Assembly (NCBI GenBank): GCA_003151235.1
Contig: PLWZ01000058.1
Span: forward strand, 1-64,000
Direction: 5' to 3'
Length of the DNA: 64,000 bases
Source of the DNA: Acidimicrobiaceae bacterium
GTDB taxonomy: Bacteria > Actinomycetota > Acidimicrobiia > Acidimicrobiales > RAAP-2
Part shown: in pieces, positions 168 to 29,826 of the stretch
Layout: each line of letters starts with the position of its first letter
Numbering within the stretch: the first letter of the stretch is position 1
Program-made: the position numbers and the translations under genes
Notes under the pieces: model-generated
Told to the model about the DNA's origin: nothing
What the model saw: the letters and a program-made list of their open reading frames with translations, nothing else
Databases searched by the model: none

Positions 168-1598
168 ATGACCGATTCACTCGAGTCGTGGCAGCCCGCC
201 CGCCTATTTCCCATTACCGGCATCGGGGGAGCGCCCGAGCAAGAGCGCCGAGCTGCTTCAGCATTTCTTGCGGTTCTCCAAGCGGTATACGAGTTTGGCC
301 GGACCCTGACGATGAGGCTGGGAGCGCCGGCGGCATCGACCATTGAGACTTTCATCGAGGTCCCGTTCAAATACGGCGGAAAGCTATACCGTCCCGACGG
401 GCTCATTCGAGTGACCCGCGGTCGACGGGAATGGAGCGTGCTCGTCGAGTTCAAGACTGGACACAACCGGCTCCAAGTCGACCAGGTATCCACGTACCTC
501 GACATCGCCCGGGAGATGGAGTTCGACGGCGTCCTGACCGTCAGCCACGAGATTCCGACGACCCCCGGTGTTCACCCGGTCCAGGTTGACGGACGCAAAC
601 TGAAGAAGGTCCAGCTCCACCACCTCTCCTGGGGTCAGATCCACACTGAGGCCCTCATCGAGCAGTTCAATCAATCGGTCGCGGACCCAGACCAGGCATG
701 GATCCTCTCGGAGTTCATCCGCTACCTCGAAGAGCCAAAATCTGGGGCACTCGACTTCGACGACATGGGGCCGTCGTGGGTATCCGTCCGCGACGGCTCA
801 GCCCGCCAAACGCTGCGAGCGAACGACCAGGAAACCCTCGACGTGGTGGCCCGCTTTGACCAGCTCGTCTCGTTTTCCGGCATGGCTCTTTCGCGGCGGC
901 TTGGTGTTCTTGTTCGTCCTGTTCTCACCCCCAAGGAGCTCGCCGATCCACCCGGCCGACTCCAGGTGCAGGCCGCGCTGATCGCGAGGACCGGTCATCT
1001 CGAAGGCAGCTTGTTTGTTCCTCGGGCGGTTGCCCCCTTGGATCTCGTCGTCGATCTCCGAGCCAATCGGATTGACTGTTCTGTGACGATCGATGCTCCA
1101 CGCGAAGGTCGCGCCGCCACTCGCGTCAATTGGCTTCTCCGGCAGTTGAACGAGGCGTCCCCACAGCTTCAAGTCCGGGCAAACATGACCAGAACCAAGG
1201 TCGGCCCGAGCTTCTCGCTGAGCGATCTGGCAGTCAAAGATAAGAGTCTGGTATCCGAGCCAAATTTCGACATTCGAAGTTTCACGCTGACTCTGAGTCA
1301 ATCTGCGGGGACGAAGGGTGGTCAGCGGAAGGGGTCGTTCGTTGCATCGGTGACGGGACTGGTAGACCGCTTCTACGAGGAGGTCGTTCAACACCTCAAG
1401 TCGTGGATCGCTCCTCCGCTCAAGGTCAAGCCTTCAGAGGCAACCGAATTGGACGGATCATCGGAGAAGGTTGCGATCGACGGAGAGCGAGCGGCAGTCG
1501 CCGACGATCTGACGAGTAGCCCCACTCCGGCCACAGTCGCTGAGATCGTCTCGGTGCCATCGGTGGGCTCTGAGTCGTCGTCGCAGGACACGCGCTGA
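168..1598 (+). CDS. PD-(D/E)XK nuclease-like protein of unknown role
   Basis: A 476-residue protein whose first ~130 residues look like a PD-(D/E)XK nuclease core: a helix with PEQE near residue 25, then Asp77 in RPDGLI, then Glu94 and Lys96 in VEFKTG, and a following QVSTY motif near 106-110 that fits the usual motif IV glutamine. The middle and C-terminal parts match nothing I recognise; the last ~50 residues are Ser/Ala/Val-rich and probably disordered. ATG at 168 follows a strong purine-rich ribosome site (aggggaggggaag). It is followed one base after its stop by a small basic gene and then by a third overlapping gene, so the three are probably co-translated. The nuclease fold is inferred from motif spacing; the substrate is unknown. 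Defence or DNA repair are possible but unproven. Confidence 0.75.
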   Translation: MTDSLESWQPARLFPITGIGGAPEQERRAASAFLAVLQAVYEFGRTLTMRLGAPAASTIETFIEVPFKYGGKLYRPDGLIRVTRGRREWSVLVEFKTGHNRLQVDQVSTYLDIAREMEFDGVLTVSHEIPTTPGVHPVQVDGRKLKKVQLHHLSWGQIHTEALIEQFNQSVADPDQAWILSEFIRYLEEPKSGALDFDDMGPSWVSVRDGSARQTLRANDQETLDVVARFDQLVSFSGMALSRRLGVLVRPVLTPKELADPPGRLQVQAALIARTGHLEGSLFVPRAVAPLDLVVDLRANRIDCSVTIDAPREGRAATRVNWLLRQLNEASPQLQVRANMTRTKVGPSFSLSDLAVKDKSLVSEPNFDIRSFTLTLSQSAGTKGGQRKGSFVASVTGLVDRFYEEVVQHLKSWIAPPLKVKPSEATELDGSSEKVAIDGERAAVADDLTSSPTPATVAEIVSVPSVGSESSSQDTR

Positions 1599-1599
1599 G

Positions 1600-1779
1600 A
1601 TGGCCATCTTCCGCTGGTTCCTACCGCGCCCCGTCCGCCGGCTCATGCACCCGGTCAGGAGCACCAAGCGCCGACTGACGCCGAGGTCGGTTCGAGCGGT
1701 CAACTACGCGCGGCACCCGGTCGGTACGGCGACCTCGGCTGCGACGCGAAGGGCGATTCGAGCAAGGCGAGGACGTTGA
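1600..1779 (+). CDS. Small Arg-rich basic protein (59 aa)
   Basis: A 59-residue reading frame that starts with ATG one base after the stop of the nuclease-like gene and whose stop overlaps the start of the next gene by four bases (TTGA). The product begins MAIFRWFLPRPVRR, is extremely rich in arginine and ends in a poly-basic tail (RAIRARRGR), with no Cys and no membrane segment. The one-base spacing on the left and four-base overlap on the right are the main reasons to believe it. A nucleic-acid-binding or partner-binding peptide is plausible but not shown. It could be non-coding linker between the two neighbours. Confidence 0.5.
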   Translation: MAIFRWFLPRPVRRLMHPVRSTKRRLTPRSVRAVNYARHPVGTATSAATRRAIRARRGR

Positions 1780-2078
1780 CCCTGGTCGACAAATTCGACT
1801 CCGACCAAGATCCGGACTGGGCCTTTGGAGAGTTCAACATGGCAGGCGCAGGCCCTGATCAGGTGCTGGCGGAGATCTTCCAGCTCGTCGAGCATATGAA
1901 CAGCGAACTTAAGGACAAGACCCTCGACGCTGGGCTGATTGAGAAGTTGCGAAAATGGTTGGCCAAGATGGGCGACGAGCTCAAAAAACTCGGATCGGAG
2001 CTCGGCGCGGCTTCATACAGCCTCTCGATGGGCGTTCCGGGCGGCGTCTCGATCAGTCTGACATTTGCGCGGAGCTGA
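1776..2078 (+). CDS. Small amphipathic protein of unknown function (100 aa)
   Basis: A 100-residue protein. The TTG at 1776 overlaps the preceding stop by four bases, which favours it; ATG at 1839 (MAGAGPDQ) is the alternative start. Residues ~25-75 are predicted helical and amphipathic (LAEIFQLVEHMNSEL, KLRKWLAKMGDELKK). The end is a short strand-like segment rich in Gly/Ser/Val (GVPGGVSISLTF). No catalytic motif or signal peptide is visible. It is the last gene of a three-gene set with the PD-(D/E)XK-like protein and faces a convergent gene 45 bases downstream. Function not recognised. Confidence 0.65.
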   Translation: MTLVDKFDSDQDPDWAFGEFNMAGAGPDQVLAEIFQLVEHMNSELKDKTLDAGLIEKLRKWLAKMGDELKKLGSELGAASYSLSMGVPGGVSISLTFARS

Positions 2079-2122: not shown

Positions 2123-2746
2123 TCACTGCTCGCGGAACCGTCGGAGCTCCCAACGGTCCGCTCTATTGGAAGGTTCCGGTGAAAGCCCTAGATCCTTGAC
2201 GAGTCCTTCGGCCTTCAGGTCATCTTCTAGATAGTCGTCCGCGTAGCCGTCCCGCGTCCTGCTCTGGAGTTCCCAGTCGACGATGATCACAATTCCCTCG
2301 CGGACCTGGCCCCATGCTCTGACCGGATCTGAGCGGTCGGCCAAAAGCAGGCAGGCTCGGAGGATGATGGCGAGCTCGGGCGGCTCTCGATGGGAGTCGT
2401 GGCCCCTGAGCAGACTCTCGATCGTCTTCTCGGCGATCCACGCGAGGCTTTGCAAACCGAGCGCCTCAAGGCGGAGCTCCAGCTCTTCGAAGTCCGCCTG
2501 GCGCTTGCTCTGGGCGAGACGGTGGTAGGTGGCGACCTGGAAGATCGCTCTTTCCAACAGGATGACAAGGTGCGGCGGTCCTTTGGAGAGAACCGCCTCG
2601 AGAGCGTCGATCCTCGCCTCGGGCGGCGTGAGCACGGCGGCAACCACCCGGTCGAGGTACTGGCGCTCACGGGTTGACAACGGCCGCCGACGCCGATCGT
2701 TCGCCGGCGCCTTCGCGGGACCTCGCGTGGTCACACCGTTGGTCAC
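2123..2746 (-). CDS. Conserved-looking helical protein, unknown function
   Basis: A 207-residue, mostly helical protein with a basic N-terminus (RRRRPLSTRERQYLDRVV) and an acidic C-terminal third (YADDYLEDDLKAEGL). It has no Cys, no signal peptide and no recognised domain. GTG at 2746 is the first usable start; the ATG a few bases upstream runs into a stop, and no good ribosome site is visible, so the start is uncertain. It is transcribed toward the nuclease-like gene cluster. Its first codons lie inside a 22-base direct repeat that recurs ~210 bases further on, next to a tRNA-like remnant, so it sits at the edge of what looks like an old insertion. Confidence 0.6.
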   Translation of the reverse strand: MTNGVTTRGPAKAPANDRRRRPLSTRERQYLDRVVAAVLTPPEARIDALEAVLSKGPPHLVILLERAIFQVATYHRLAQSKRQADFEELELRLEALGLQSLAWIAEKTIESLLRGHDSHREPPELAIILRACLLLADRSDPVRAWGQVREGIVIIVDWELQSRTRDGYADDYLEDDLKAEGLVKDLGLSPEPSNRADRWELRRFREQ

Positions 2747-2957
2747 AGACTGCTCATAACGGAGCCGGACTCGACATCACCGTCAACGTTATCCGGGGGC
2801 AGTAACACGCCGCCGACCTGCGAAAACCAGACTGACCCGGACGCGTCGGCATCGGCTTGACGGGAGTTCGAGTCCCGCTCCGGGCACTTTTCATACTTCC
2901 AGTTCGGTGGCCTACTGCCGCCCGCGAAACAGCCCTGTGGTCACAAGTTGGTCACAG
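2727..2957. repeat. Direct repeat pair flanking a tRNA-like remnant
   Basis: Two near-identical copies, 2727-2748 and 2937-2957, both of the form GTGGTCACA-nn(n)-TTGGTCACAG. They differ only in the short spacer (CCG against AG). Each copy itself contains GGTCACA twice. The first overlaps the 5' end of the 2123-2746 gene; the second lies in non-coding sequence beyond the tRNA-like remnant. The arrangement recalls arm-type sites or duplicated ends around an integration site. That interpretation is inference. Confidence 0.5.
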
Positions 2958-6813: not shown

Positions 6814-8037
6814 GTGCTGGTATTCACGTTCCCCGGGCAGGGATCGCAGCGGTCCGGCATGGGGGCGCCGTGGGTCGACCACCCGTCCTTCGAGGTCGTC
6901 GCTGAGGCGTCGAACGCGGCCGGACGCGATCTCTCCACACTGGTGCTCGACGCGCCCATGGAGGAGCTCACCGCAACCGCCAACGCCCAACTGGCCACGT
7001 TCGTCCAGAGCCTGGTCGTGCTCGACGCCGTCGAGCGACTCGGGCTCTCCCCCGGCGCCTGCGCCGGCCACAGCCTCGGTGAGTACACCGCCCTGGTGGC
7101 CAGTGGCGCCATGTCCTTCGAGGACGGCGTGCAGCTCGTCGTCGCGAGAGGCGATGCGATGGGACGGGCCGGTGAGGACGCGCCGGGCACCATGGCCGCG
7201 CTCTTGGGCATCACCGACGACGACGCCGAGGCGGCGTGCCAGCGGGCCGAGGGCGACGTCTGGGTGGCCAACTACAACGCCCCCGGGCAGGTGGTGATCG
7301 CGGGAACCACCGAGGCCGTGAAGCGAGCGAGCGACCTGGCCAAGGATCTCGGTGCCCGGCGTGTCCTGCCCATCCCGGTGTCGGGCGCGTTCCACACCCC
7401 GCTCATGGCGGCCGCCCGTTCCGCGTTGCGCAAGGCGCTCGGCGACACGGTGTTCCGCTCGCCCGAGGTGCCGGTCATCGCAAACGTCGACGCACGCATC
7501 CACAGTGACCCCTCCGAGTGGCCGGGACTCCTGTCGGCGCAGCTGTGCAGCCCGGTGCGGTGGCGACAGTCGTTGGAGACGCTGGCCTCGCTTGGCGGGA
7601 CGACGTTCGTCGAGATCGGTCCGGGCGGGGTGCTGAGCGGTCTGGCCCGGCGCTCGGTCGCCGATGTCGAGACCGTCTCGGTCGCCGAGCCCGACGACCT
7701 CGACCGGCTGATGGACCTCGTCGCCAAGCCGGAGCGTGCCGAGACCCACATCGGCGAGCACCTGTACATGTCCGAACGGGTCGTGGTGAGCCCGGGCGGC
7801 GGCATCTTCTTCCCCGAGCAGACCCTGTCGGCGCCGGGCGCCGGGCTGCTGCCCGGCACGATCGCGGCAGGCCAAGCGACCTCGGGCATCTCGGTCGGTG
7901 ACCTGGTCGGCCGGGTCGGCACGATCGAGGTGCGCACGCCGTTCGGCGGCGCGGTCGTGCGCTGGTTGGCCACCGCCGGCGAGCGGGTGCAGGAGGGACA
8001 GCCGCTCCTGTGGCTGCGGGTGGCCGGCGACCTGTGA
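6814..8037 (+). CDS. fabD: Malonyl-CoA:ACP transacylase with C-terminal biotinyl/lipoyl-like domain
   Basis: Residues 1-300 are a complete FabD: FPGQGSQ at 6-12, the nucleophile Ser87 in GHSLGEY, His194 in GAFHTPL. It moves malonyl from CoA to acyl carrier protein to feed chain elongation. The start is GTG 6814 behind GGAGAG. At 407 residues it is ~100 longer than usual. Residues ~322-403 form an extra domain (VVVSPGGGIFFPE ... IEVRTPFGGAVVRWLATAGERVQEGQPLLWL) that resembles the paired beta-hairpins of biotin-carrier/lipoyl domains, but the lysine-bearing EAMKM turn is replaced by RVGTIEV and no lysine is present there. It is probably a non-modified structural or docking domain. fabG follows with a GTGA overlap. 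Confidence 0.9.
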   Translation: MLVFTFPGQGSQRSGMGAPWVDHPSFEVVAEASNAAGRDLSTLVLDAPMEELTATANAQLATFVQSLVVLDAVERLGLSPGACAGHSLGEYTALVASGAMSFEDGVQLVVARGDAMGRAGEDAPGTMAALLGITDDDAEAACQRAEGDVWVANYNAPGQVVIAGTTEAVKRASDLAKDLGARRVLPIPVSGAFHTPLMAAARSALRKALGDTVFRSPEVPVIANVDARIHSDPSEWPGLLSAQLCSPVRWRQSLETLASLGGTTFVEIGPGGVLSGLARRSVADVETVSVAEPDDLDRLMDLVAKPERAETHIGEHLYMSERVVVSPGGGIFFPEQTLSAPGAGLLPGTIAAGQATSGISVGDLVGRVGTIEVRTPFGGAVVRWLATAGERVQEGQPLLWLRVAGDL

Positions 8038-9065: not shown

Positions 9066-10264
9066 TGTTGCTCGGTCGGGGCGCTGACGGCCCGATCGTC
9101 GGGCGGACGGTCGCCATCACCGGAGTCGGGGCGGTCACCTGCTGCGGCGTCGGCGCCGACAAGCTGTGGGACCAGCTCCTCCACCCGACGGTGTCGGGCG
9201 AGCGCAGCGTCCCCGACTTCGACCCCTCGGTCTGGTTCGGACCGAAGGAGGCCCGCCGCCTCGACCGGTTCGCCCAGATGAGCGTGGCCGCAGCGGAGCT
9301 GGCCAAGACCGACGCCGGCGAGCTCGGGGCCGACCCCGACCGCGCCGGGGTCATCTTCGCGAGCGGCGTGGGTGGGTTCCACACCCTGGTCGAGCAGGTC
9401 CTCGTCTGCGACAAGAAGGGCCCCGGGCGCGTGTCGCCGTTCCTCGTGCCGATGATGATGGCCAACGCAGGGGCGGCCAATGTGTCGATGCGCTTCGGCT
9501 GGCACGGCCCGTCCGAGACCATCGCGACCGCATGCGCCGCCGGGACCCACGCCGTCACGGCGGCGGCGCGACTGGTCGCGTCGGGCCGCTGTGACGTCGC
9601 CATCGGTGGTGGCGCCGAGGCCGCCATCCAGGAGGTGGCGGTGGGCGCGTTCGTCAACATGACCGCGCTGTCGAACACCGGTGAGTCAAGGCCCTTCGAC
9701 GCCCGGCGCGACGGATTCGTCATCGCCGAAGGTGCGGCGGCCCTCGTCCTCGAGGACAAGGAGCGGGCCGTCGCCCGCGGGGCACGCATCTACGCCGAGA
9801 TCGCCGGCGGCGCGTCGACGGCCGACGCCCACCACATCACCGCCCCCGAGCCCGAGGGCACCGGCGCGGTCGCGTGCATGGAGCTGGCCCTCGAAGACGC
9901 AGGCCTCACACCGGCCGATGTCGGCCACGTCAACGCGCACGGGACCTCCACCCCGCTCAACGACCTCGCCGAGTCGCGAGCGATCCACAAGGTGTTCGGC
10001 GAGCCGGGACCCCCGGTCACCTCGGCCAAGGGCCTGACCGGGCACAGCCTCGGCGCGGCCGGCGCCATCGAGGCGGTGGCATCGGCGCTCACCATCTTCC
10101 ACGGGCTGATCCCGCCGACCGCGGGGCTCGAGCAGCTCGACCCCGAGATCAACCTCGACGTCGTGCGGGGCGAACCGCGGCCGTGGACGCCCGGGCCGGT
10201 GCTGTCGAACTCGTTCGGGTTCGGCGGCCACAACGGCTGCCTCGTCATCGTCCCGGCCGGCTGA
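9065..10264 (+). CDS. fabF: Beta-ketoacyl-ACP synthase II
   Basis: A 399-residue condensing enzyme with the Cys-His-His triad: Cys157 in ATACAAGTH, His292 in VNAHGTST, His327 in KGLTGHSLGAAG. This matches the KAS I/II type and not FabH. It elongates acyl-ACP by decarboxylative condensation with malonyl-ACP. ATG at 9065 shares one base with the acpP stop. It ends the fab operon and is convergent with trpA, only seven bases apart, with no hairpin between them. fabH and fabI/inhA are not in the window. Confidence 0.93.
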   Translation: MLLGRGADGPIVGRTVAITGVGAVTCCGVGADKLWDQLLHPTVSGERSVPDFDPSVWFGPKEARRLDRFAQMSVAAAELAKTDAGELGADPDRAGVIFASGVGGFHTLVEQVLVCDKKGPGRVSPFLVPMMMANAGAANVSMRFGWHGPSETIATACAAGTHAVTAAARLVASGRCDVAIGGGAEAAIQEVAVGAFVNMTALSNTGESRPFDARRDGFVIAEGAAALVLEDKERAVARGARIYAEIAGGASTADAHHITAPEPEGTGAVACMELALEDAGLTPADVGHVNAHGTSTPLNDLAESRAIHKVFGEPGPPVTSAKGLTGHSLGAAGAIEAVASALTIFHGLIPPTAGLEQLDPEINLDVVRGEPRPWTPGPVLSNSFGFGGHNGCLVIVPAG

Positions 10265-28698: not shown

Positions 28699-29826
28699 GT
28701 GAACACCGAGGCCTGGGAGGGTGCCGGCATCTACGAGCCGGACGCCCCGAACGCCGCCGAGCGCCTCGCCCTTCTCGAGTACCTGAGCGCCCGGGGCGCC
28801 ACCCTCGAGCAGCTGGTGGAGGGCGACCGCCTCACGAGCCTTCCCGCCGTCGCAGGCGACCTTGTGCTGACCAGGAACCGGTCGATGGTTTCGGTCGAGG
28901 AGCTGGCCGCCCGATGCGGCGTCCCGGTCGAGACTATCGAGCGGGTGCTGCTGGCGGCGGGCTTGGCGGCCGGCCCCCACAGCAAACTTCCCGAGGGACT
29001 GGACGCGCTGATCGCGGCGTTCCTCCAAGGGGCCAGTCTGATGGGCGAGGAGTCGATCCTGGCCTTCACCCGCGTGCTCGGCTCGGCCGCGACCACCATC
29101 GCCGAGGCCGCGGTGGCCCTCTTCTACGCGGAGCTCGGTCCCGGCACCGAGCGCGAGGGGTGGGACGAGCTGGCCCGGGCCCACATATCGGAGCGGGCCG
29201 TGATGGCCTTCACCTCCATCCCCGAGGTCCTGTCGCGGGTCCTCCTCGCCCAGTTCGACCGGGCCACACACCGAGCCACCCTCGTGCGGGGCTGGGAGGC
29301 GCCGGAGGGGGGCGACGGTCCGAGCGAAATCGTCGCGCTTGGCTTCGTCGACCTGGTCGGGTCGACCGCGTGGGCCGAGACCTTGAGCCTGCGGGACCAG
29401 AGCCTGGCGCTCTCGCGGTTCGAGTCCGCCGCGTGGTCGGCCACGGTCCTCACCGGCGGGCGCGTGGTGAAGATGATCGGCGACGAGGCGTTCTTCGCCG
29501 CCCCATCGGTGGACGACGCGTGTCGGATCGGCACCGAGATGTGCCAGATGGCGGCGGACGACCCGGTTCTCCCACCCGCCCGGGCGGCCGTCGGCTTCGG
29601 ATCGGCGACGCCACGGGAGGGTGACTACTTCGGCCCGCTCGTCAACACGGTTTCGCGCCTCGTGAAGGTCGCGGCGCCGGGCGAGCTCGTTGCGACCGAA
29701 GAGGCCGTTTCGCAACTGCGAGAGGACCGCTGGGACCTGAGGGAGCTTGATCCCCAACAACTGCGGGGGGTGGACCGCGACGTCAGAGCCTTCGCAGTCA
29801 GCGGTCCGGGTTCTCGCACCCCGTAG
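28699..29826 (+). CDS. Class III nucleotidyl cyclase with N-terminal regulatory domain
   Basis: 375 residues from GTG 28699. The catalytic domain (~208-370) shows the first metal Asp218 in GFVDLVGSTAW, Lys258 and the second metal Asp262 in KMIGDEAFF, and the transition-state Asn316/Arg320 in YFGPLVNTVSRLVK. These support adenylate cyclase activity. The first ~190 residues, with LEYLSARGATLEQL and an HTH-like EELAARCGVPVETIE, resemble the autoinhibitory, pH-sensing half of the mycobacterial Rv1264 type. No membrane segment, so it is cytosolic and likely a dimer. A small coiled-coil gene follows. Confidence 0.85.
   Translation: MNTEAWEGAGIYEPDAPNAAERLALLEYLSARGATLEQLVEGDRLTSLPAVAGDLVLTRNRSMVSVEELAARCGVPVETIERVLLAAGLAAGPHSKLPEGLDALIAAFLQGASLMGEESILAFTRVLGSAATTIAEAAVALFYAELGPGTEREGWDELARAHISERAVMAFTSIPEVLSRVLLAQFDRATHRATLVRGWEAPEGGDGPSEIVALGFVDLVGSTAWAETLSLRDQSLALSRFESAAWSATVLTGGRVVKMIGDEAFFAAPSVDDACRIGTEMCQMAADDPVLPPARAAVGFGSATPREGDYFGPLVNTVSRLVKVAAPGELVATEEAVSQLREDRWDLRELDPQQLRGVDRDVRAFAVSGPGSRTP

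Follow-up and report, generated by a model that had tools for sequence, protein, structure and literature searches.

The first gene of the window (the whole stretch of 64,000 nucleotides analyzed here) probably encodes a stand-alone member of an uncharacterized, mostly actinobacterial family of PD-(D/E)XK nucleases, and it appears to be accessory cargo close to one end of an element, or of what remains of one, that inserted at the 3′ end of a tRNA-Leu(CAA) gene. Two small genes packed closely behind it are probably co-transcribed passengers rather than regular partners. The significance of the locus rests on the joining of TerD domains to predicted nucleases in the gene 1 family and on tRNA-linked mobility, not on the trio of genes. 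The features are collected in Table 1. Position 1 of the window coincides with the start of contig C30 in a draft genome (3.57 Mb in 93 contigs), such that only 167 bases are visible 5′ of gene 1 and any upstream partner or integrase would lie beyond view.

Table 1. Features near the first base of the window
Feature	Position	Strand	Basis
Gene 1, 476-aa stand-alone protein of predicted PD-(D/E)XK fold	168..1598	+	Fold model, conserved motif
Gene 2, 59-aa basic protein with dispersed relatives	1600..1779	+	Paralogues in the source genome
Gene 3, small protein, 100 aa (TTG 1776) or 79 aa (ATG 1839)	1776..2078	+	Codon usage
207-aa ORF without a family match, between the trio and the scar	2123..2746	-	
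3′ end of tRNA-Leu(CAA), attachment-site scar	2867..2887	+	21 identical bases

Predicted fold and active site of gene 1

Gene 1 is judged to be complete and to stand alone because its ATG at position 168 is preceded by an in-frame stop codon (150-152) and by a purine-rich ribosome-binding stretch (151-163). Its status as a coding region is backed by protein homologues. An AlphaFold2 model built from 16 sequences (mean pLDDT 81.7, pTM 0.78) exhibits, in order, a helix at residues 22-39, strands at 58-63, 78-84, and 87-95, a helix at 104-116, and a strand at 121-126, which is the alpha-beta-beta-beta-alpha-beta order of the PD-(D/E)XK core. The residues D77, E94, and K96 and the segment Q106-V-S-T-Y110, which the sequence-only reading had singled out as signs of a nuclease, are located where that reading placed them. 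In the model, D77 immediately precedes the strand at 78-84, and E94-x-K96 lies at the end of the strand at 87-95. This core occupies residues of about 20-165 and is followed by a helical middle region (170-260), a C-terminal alpha/beta domain (262-420), and a disordered tail (424-476).

Fold comparisons with Foldseek point in the same direction. Among PDB structures, EcoT38I is the top match and BamHI and FokI are among the best, with probabilities of up to 0.98 (BamHI) and 0.90 (EcoT38I), although the best E value is only 0.026. Phage PD-(D/E)XK proteins lead the list from the viral library, with probabilities of up to 1.00. No match at E <= 0.001 was obtained in either the PDB or the viral library. 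When 36 members of the gene 1 family were compared with Pfam, the weak matches that recurred were VRR_NUC, Tox-REase-7, and TnsA, all of which have the PD-(D/E)XK fold. Gene 1 alone gave no match in family libraries or among PDB sequences, and these searches revealed no solved relative at the sequence level. Indeed, all three genes of the trio are without a match in Pfam, NCBIfam, PADLOC, and PHROGs, consistent with the earlier remark that no family could be named for any of them.

The putative active site is strongly conserved. In an alignment of 43 family sequences, whose numbering is shifted by +5 relative to gene 1, E94 and K96 are present in every sequence, Q106 and Y110 in 42, and D77 in 41. 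Because several individually weak lines combine, namely the order of the modeled core, the resemblance to restriction enzymes and phage nucleases, the recurrent weak Pfam matches, and the conserved D77, E94, and K96, the earlier proposal of a PD-(D/E)XK fold can be regarded as safe, and the prediction that gene 1 adopts this fold with a conserved D...(D/E)xK motif is supported. The superfamily includes inactive members, and gene 1 might conceivably retain the fold with a decayed active site and serve to bind nucleic acid without activity. However, D77, E94, K96, Q106, and Y110 belong to the best-conserved residues in the family, and we consider this reading very improbable. The gene 1 product is a predicted nuclease that would cut nucleic acid by metal-dependent hydrolysis at D77, E94, and K96. 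Perhaps its C-terminal alpha/beta domain recognizes a ligand or controls the nuclease.

The predicted core fold and the D...E-x-K motif are shared with other branches of the PD-(D/E)XK superfamily, such as BamHI, EcoT38I, VRR-NUC, and the N-terminal domain of TnsA. Unlike the named families, gene 1 lacks a significant sequence match and carries extra domains of its own, one helical and a C-terminal one of alpha/beta type.

Distribution of the family and its TerD-fused members

The gene 1 family is a widespread, mostly actinobacterial, uncharacterized group of predicted PD-(D/E)XK nucleases. Fifteen relatives were found in the GTDB species set, including members from Kribbella, Allokutzneria, Kineosporia, Cellulomonas, and Dactylosporangium and from a few metagenome-assembled genomes, one of which is labelled Chloroflexi. 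With the source genome included in both counts, the family is present in 28 of 298 sampled genomes of the order (about 9%) and in 16 of 301 sampled genomes of the phylum (5%). No homologue was detected in the other 11 sampled genomes of the taxonomic family to which the source genome belongs. Relatives also reside on 11 plasmids. None was found among phage records, and a single partial viral contig was the only viral hit; an origin of gene 1 in phages or other viruses was rejected on these grounds.

At ten of the loci examined, including those of Streptomyces and Rhodococcus, a TerD domain is encoded ahead of the nuclease part, while most members of the family, like gene 1, are without it. The Rhodococcus and Streptomyces plasmid fusions are annotated 'TerD family protein'. 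In such proteins of Streptomyces and Rhodococcus (for example, WP_159929459.1 and WP_206278598.1), gene 1 has its counterpart in the C-terminal 410-420 residues, with 35-39% identity and with the active-site motif included in the homology. These proteins start with the TerD domain, whereas gene 1 has no Pfam match to it (PF02342) and begins at its own start codon after the stop at 150-152. On a Rhodococcus plasmid (L063), the TerD-nuclease gene is overlapped at its 3′ end by a tRNA-Ser(ACT)-like call (9230-9315) on the opposite strand, which is possibly spurious.

The TerD domain has been counted with the nucleotide-binding domains of conflict systems (PMC7159879). Because some members of the gene 1 family are fused to an N-terminal TerD domain, it seems reasonable to speculate that the family might act in stress or conflict. 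No publication that directly describes the gene 1 family or the TerD-nuclease fusion was found in the open literature searched. Ter-dependent stress response systems, treated by Anantharaman, Iyer and Aravind in 2012, reportedly connect TerD domains with DNA-processing functions. Gene 1 differs from these systems in that it is without TerD, and no ter genes are evident in the visible adjoining sequence.

The direct joining of TerD domains to a predicted nuclease suggests a connection, open to experiment, from the sensing of stress by Ter to the cleavage of DNA or RNA. Furthermore, a fold and an active site can now be assigned to a family that is present in roughly 5-9% of sampled genomes and whose TerD-fused members are labelled merely by their TerD domain.

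A tRNA scar and the genomic surroundings of the family

The tRNA-like scar noted in the earlier reading proved to be genuine, in that its 21 bases are an exact copy of the 3′ end of tRNA-Leu(CAA). An intact tRNA-Leu(CAA) gene is located elsewhere in the source genome (G000:C89, about 29112-29196; L062 7113-7197), approximately 0.9 kb from the end of its contig. Because the scar matches this intact tRNA gene, the trio is probably cargo that sits close to one boundary of an integrated element. The orientation fits an element that would bridge C89 and C30 and have the trio close to its far end, a joining that we infer, since both contigs stop. Such an element would have inserted at the tRNA 3′ end and left the 21-base scar, and gene 1 would be accessory cargo toward one end of the element or its remnant. 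GC content is 60-65% across the first 5 kb of the window versus about 71% through most of the remainder, which favors the cargo reading; on the other side, the region of low GC extends approximately 2 kb past the scar.

Two other features of these sites deserve mention. Paired TGGTCACA direct repeats are located by the scar (window positions 2728-2747 and 2936-2955) and by the intact tRNA-Leu gene (L062, about 7245-7265). The spaced TGGTCACA pattern has one exact match in the source genome, and a variant follows the intact tRNA; these repeats are possibly recombinase sites. In addition, a fragment of an IS110-like transposase, recognized by eye only, follows the intact tRNA gene (L062 7470-7706).

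A tendency to reside near tRNA genes is also observed among the homologues of gene 1. At 55 homologue loci, a count from which four Kribbella orthologues were left out, there are 14 tRNA genes within 3 kb (305 kb of sequence) versus 6 further out (509 kb; p=0.003). This test was devised after the first loci had been seen; the 14 later loci alone hold 4 near and 3 far tRNAs, which is in line with the trend and weak by itself. At four loci (L034, L047, L053, and L124), the relative of gene 1 lies less than 300 bases from a tRNA gene, and at one of these (L053) it is flanked by two copies of tRNA-Cys. At L035, a relative adjoins both tRNA-Ala and an integrase. Overall, the tRNA association of the family is moderate. 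Ordinary chromosomal genes make up most of the neighbors of its members, and the majority of loci are without a tRNA gene inside 3 kb, such that carriage as mobile cargo is not typical of the family.

The clustering of all neighbor genes uncovered no partner shared around gene 1 homologues beyond close relatives. A DUF4240 gene follows the homologue in five Kribbella species, and this adjacency reflects orthology of place. The sequence-only reading had also raised the prospect of a defence system, and a location of the family in defence islands was examined with PADLOC. There were 31 families matched among the 117 nearest neighbors versus 94 among 117 distal genes (4.5-10 kb away at the same loci), the latter figure being inflated, apparently by one methyltransferase that matches many models. 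Most matches are to generic methyltransferases and ATPases. Given that defence genes are no more common near gene 1 homologues than at a distance, the defence-island reading was rejected. The PADLOC 2023 models gave no match to gene 1, 2, or 3 and only one weak match (E=0.042) among 36 family members.

The absence of PADLOC enrichment is consistent with another possibility, which is that gene 1 serves the chromosome as a nuclease of stress response or repair, perhaps in a pathway linked to TerD, and that its position beside the scar is accidental. The TerD fusions at ten loci and the constant chromosomal place beside DUF4240 in Kribbella likewise favor such a role. However, it is difficult to reconcile with the patchy distribution of the family, including its absence from the sampled relatives within the taxonomic family of the source genome, with the tRNA proximity of homologues and their plasmid copies, and with the L035 relative that adjoins an integrase and a tRNA. 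We therefore regard a purely chromosomal role as unlikely and favor accessory cargo at the tRNA-Leu(CAA) site. A broader extension of the cargo reading is that an undescribed family of nuclease effectors, with and without a TerD sensor, inserts repeatedly beside actinobacterial tRNA genes, where the TerD form would be a sensor-coupled nuclease of conflict or stress and the window would hold the sensorless form. This extension is offered tentatively, and we consider it somewhat less likely than not.

The two small genes behind gene 1

All three open reading frames described earlier are present in the sequence, and they are as tightly packed as was claimed, with a 1-base gap between genes 1 and 2 and a TTGA overlap (1776-1779) between genes 2 and 3. 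This arrangement had suggested an accessory or defence system of three parts that might recur in other genomes. When genes 2 and 3 were sought by tblastn at 60 loci (958 kb; 59 with a scored gene 1 homologue), the best match reached only E=0.04. The three-gene order was found at none of the 59 homologue loci, which is the outcome that the sequence-only reading had itself named as a refutation, and paralogues of gene 2 reside beside unrelated genes. The trio was therefore rejected as a conserved system, and a false lead is removed in that close packing at this site does not imply a three-part system.

Perhaps the trio is instead a recent, lineage-specific system, such as a toxin-antitoxin-like or defence operon in which gene 1 cuts, the basic gene 2 product binds nucleic acid, and the gene 3 product acts as an inhibitor or switch of the nuclease. 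The junctions of 1 and -4 bases, the purifying selection on gene 2, the coding statistics of gene 3, and the location at an island edge, which is a frequent site of defence genes, are all compatible with this idea. Nevertheless, relatives of genes 2 and 3 adjoin none of the 59 gene 1 homologues, which evidently persist without them, and three gene 2 paralogues occur in the source genome with neither gene 1 nor gene 3 alongside. We consider such a system quite unlikely. Genes 2 and 3 probably ride along with gene 1 as part of the same transcript.

Evidence that gene 3 is coding comes from codon usage only, which contributes +30 bits from ATG 1839 onward and +14 bits for TTG 1776-1838. Two start codons compete: the ribosome-binding site favors ATG 1839, which is preceded by GGAGAG at 1827-1832 and is better served than TTG 1776, whereas codon usage favors TTG 1776. 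Structure prediction from the single sequence yields a pair of long helices followed by a beta hairpin at the C terminus (pLDDT 73), and a fold search with gene 3 returned nothing. No secure homologue was found in 298 genomes of the order, 396 genomes of the phylum, plasmids, or viral contigs. The best candidate, a 110-aa ORF in G355, resembles gene 3 in its C-terminal hairpin, and it was rejected as a relative since its per-genome E value of 0.003 is about what chance would produce over 396 genomes. A two-sequence profile found nothing further. A 102-aa ORF at a contig end (L107 4458-4763) carries a hairpin like that of gene 3 at its C terminus (GFSISAGFTGISVGLSF), a match no better than chance would give over so many genomes.

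Gene 2 belongs to a family dispersed through the source genome, where paralogues are found on contigs C70 (81%), C39 (76%), and C42 (65%, interrupted by a stop codon); copies lie at L095 4824-4994, L096 3370-3546, and L097 7752-7919. A whole-genome search revealed relatives also in G088, G297, G222, and G198, likewise in different surroundings. The DNA match starts at the ATG and stops at the end of the coding region, except for the C70 and C42 copies, which have in common an upstream lipoprotein-like gene. DNA differences from the paralogues are concentrated at third codon positions (against the C70 copy, for example, they number 11, 7, and 24 at codon positions 1, 2, and 3, respectively), and gene 2 is therefore taken to be a real gene. 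Its place behind gene 1 is one of four contexts in the source genome, the others being unrelated, which argues that genes 1 and 2 are not a fixed unit. The family pattern, PRPVRRxxHPVRxTKRRLTPKxVR, belongs to a protein that possibly binds nucleic acid. Three relatives (L099, L100, and L105) run on into an HGNC...HRS...C tail that might bind zinc.
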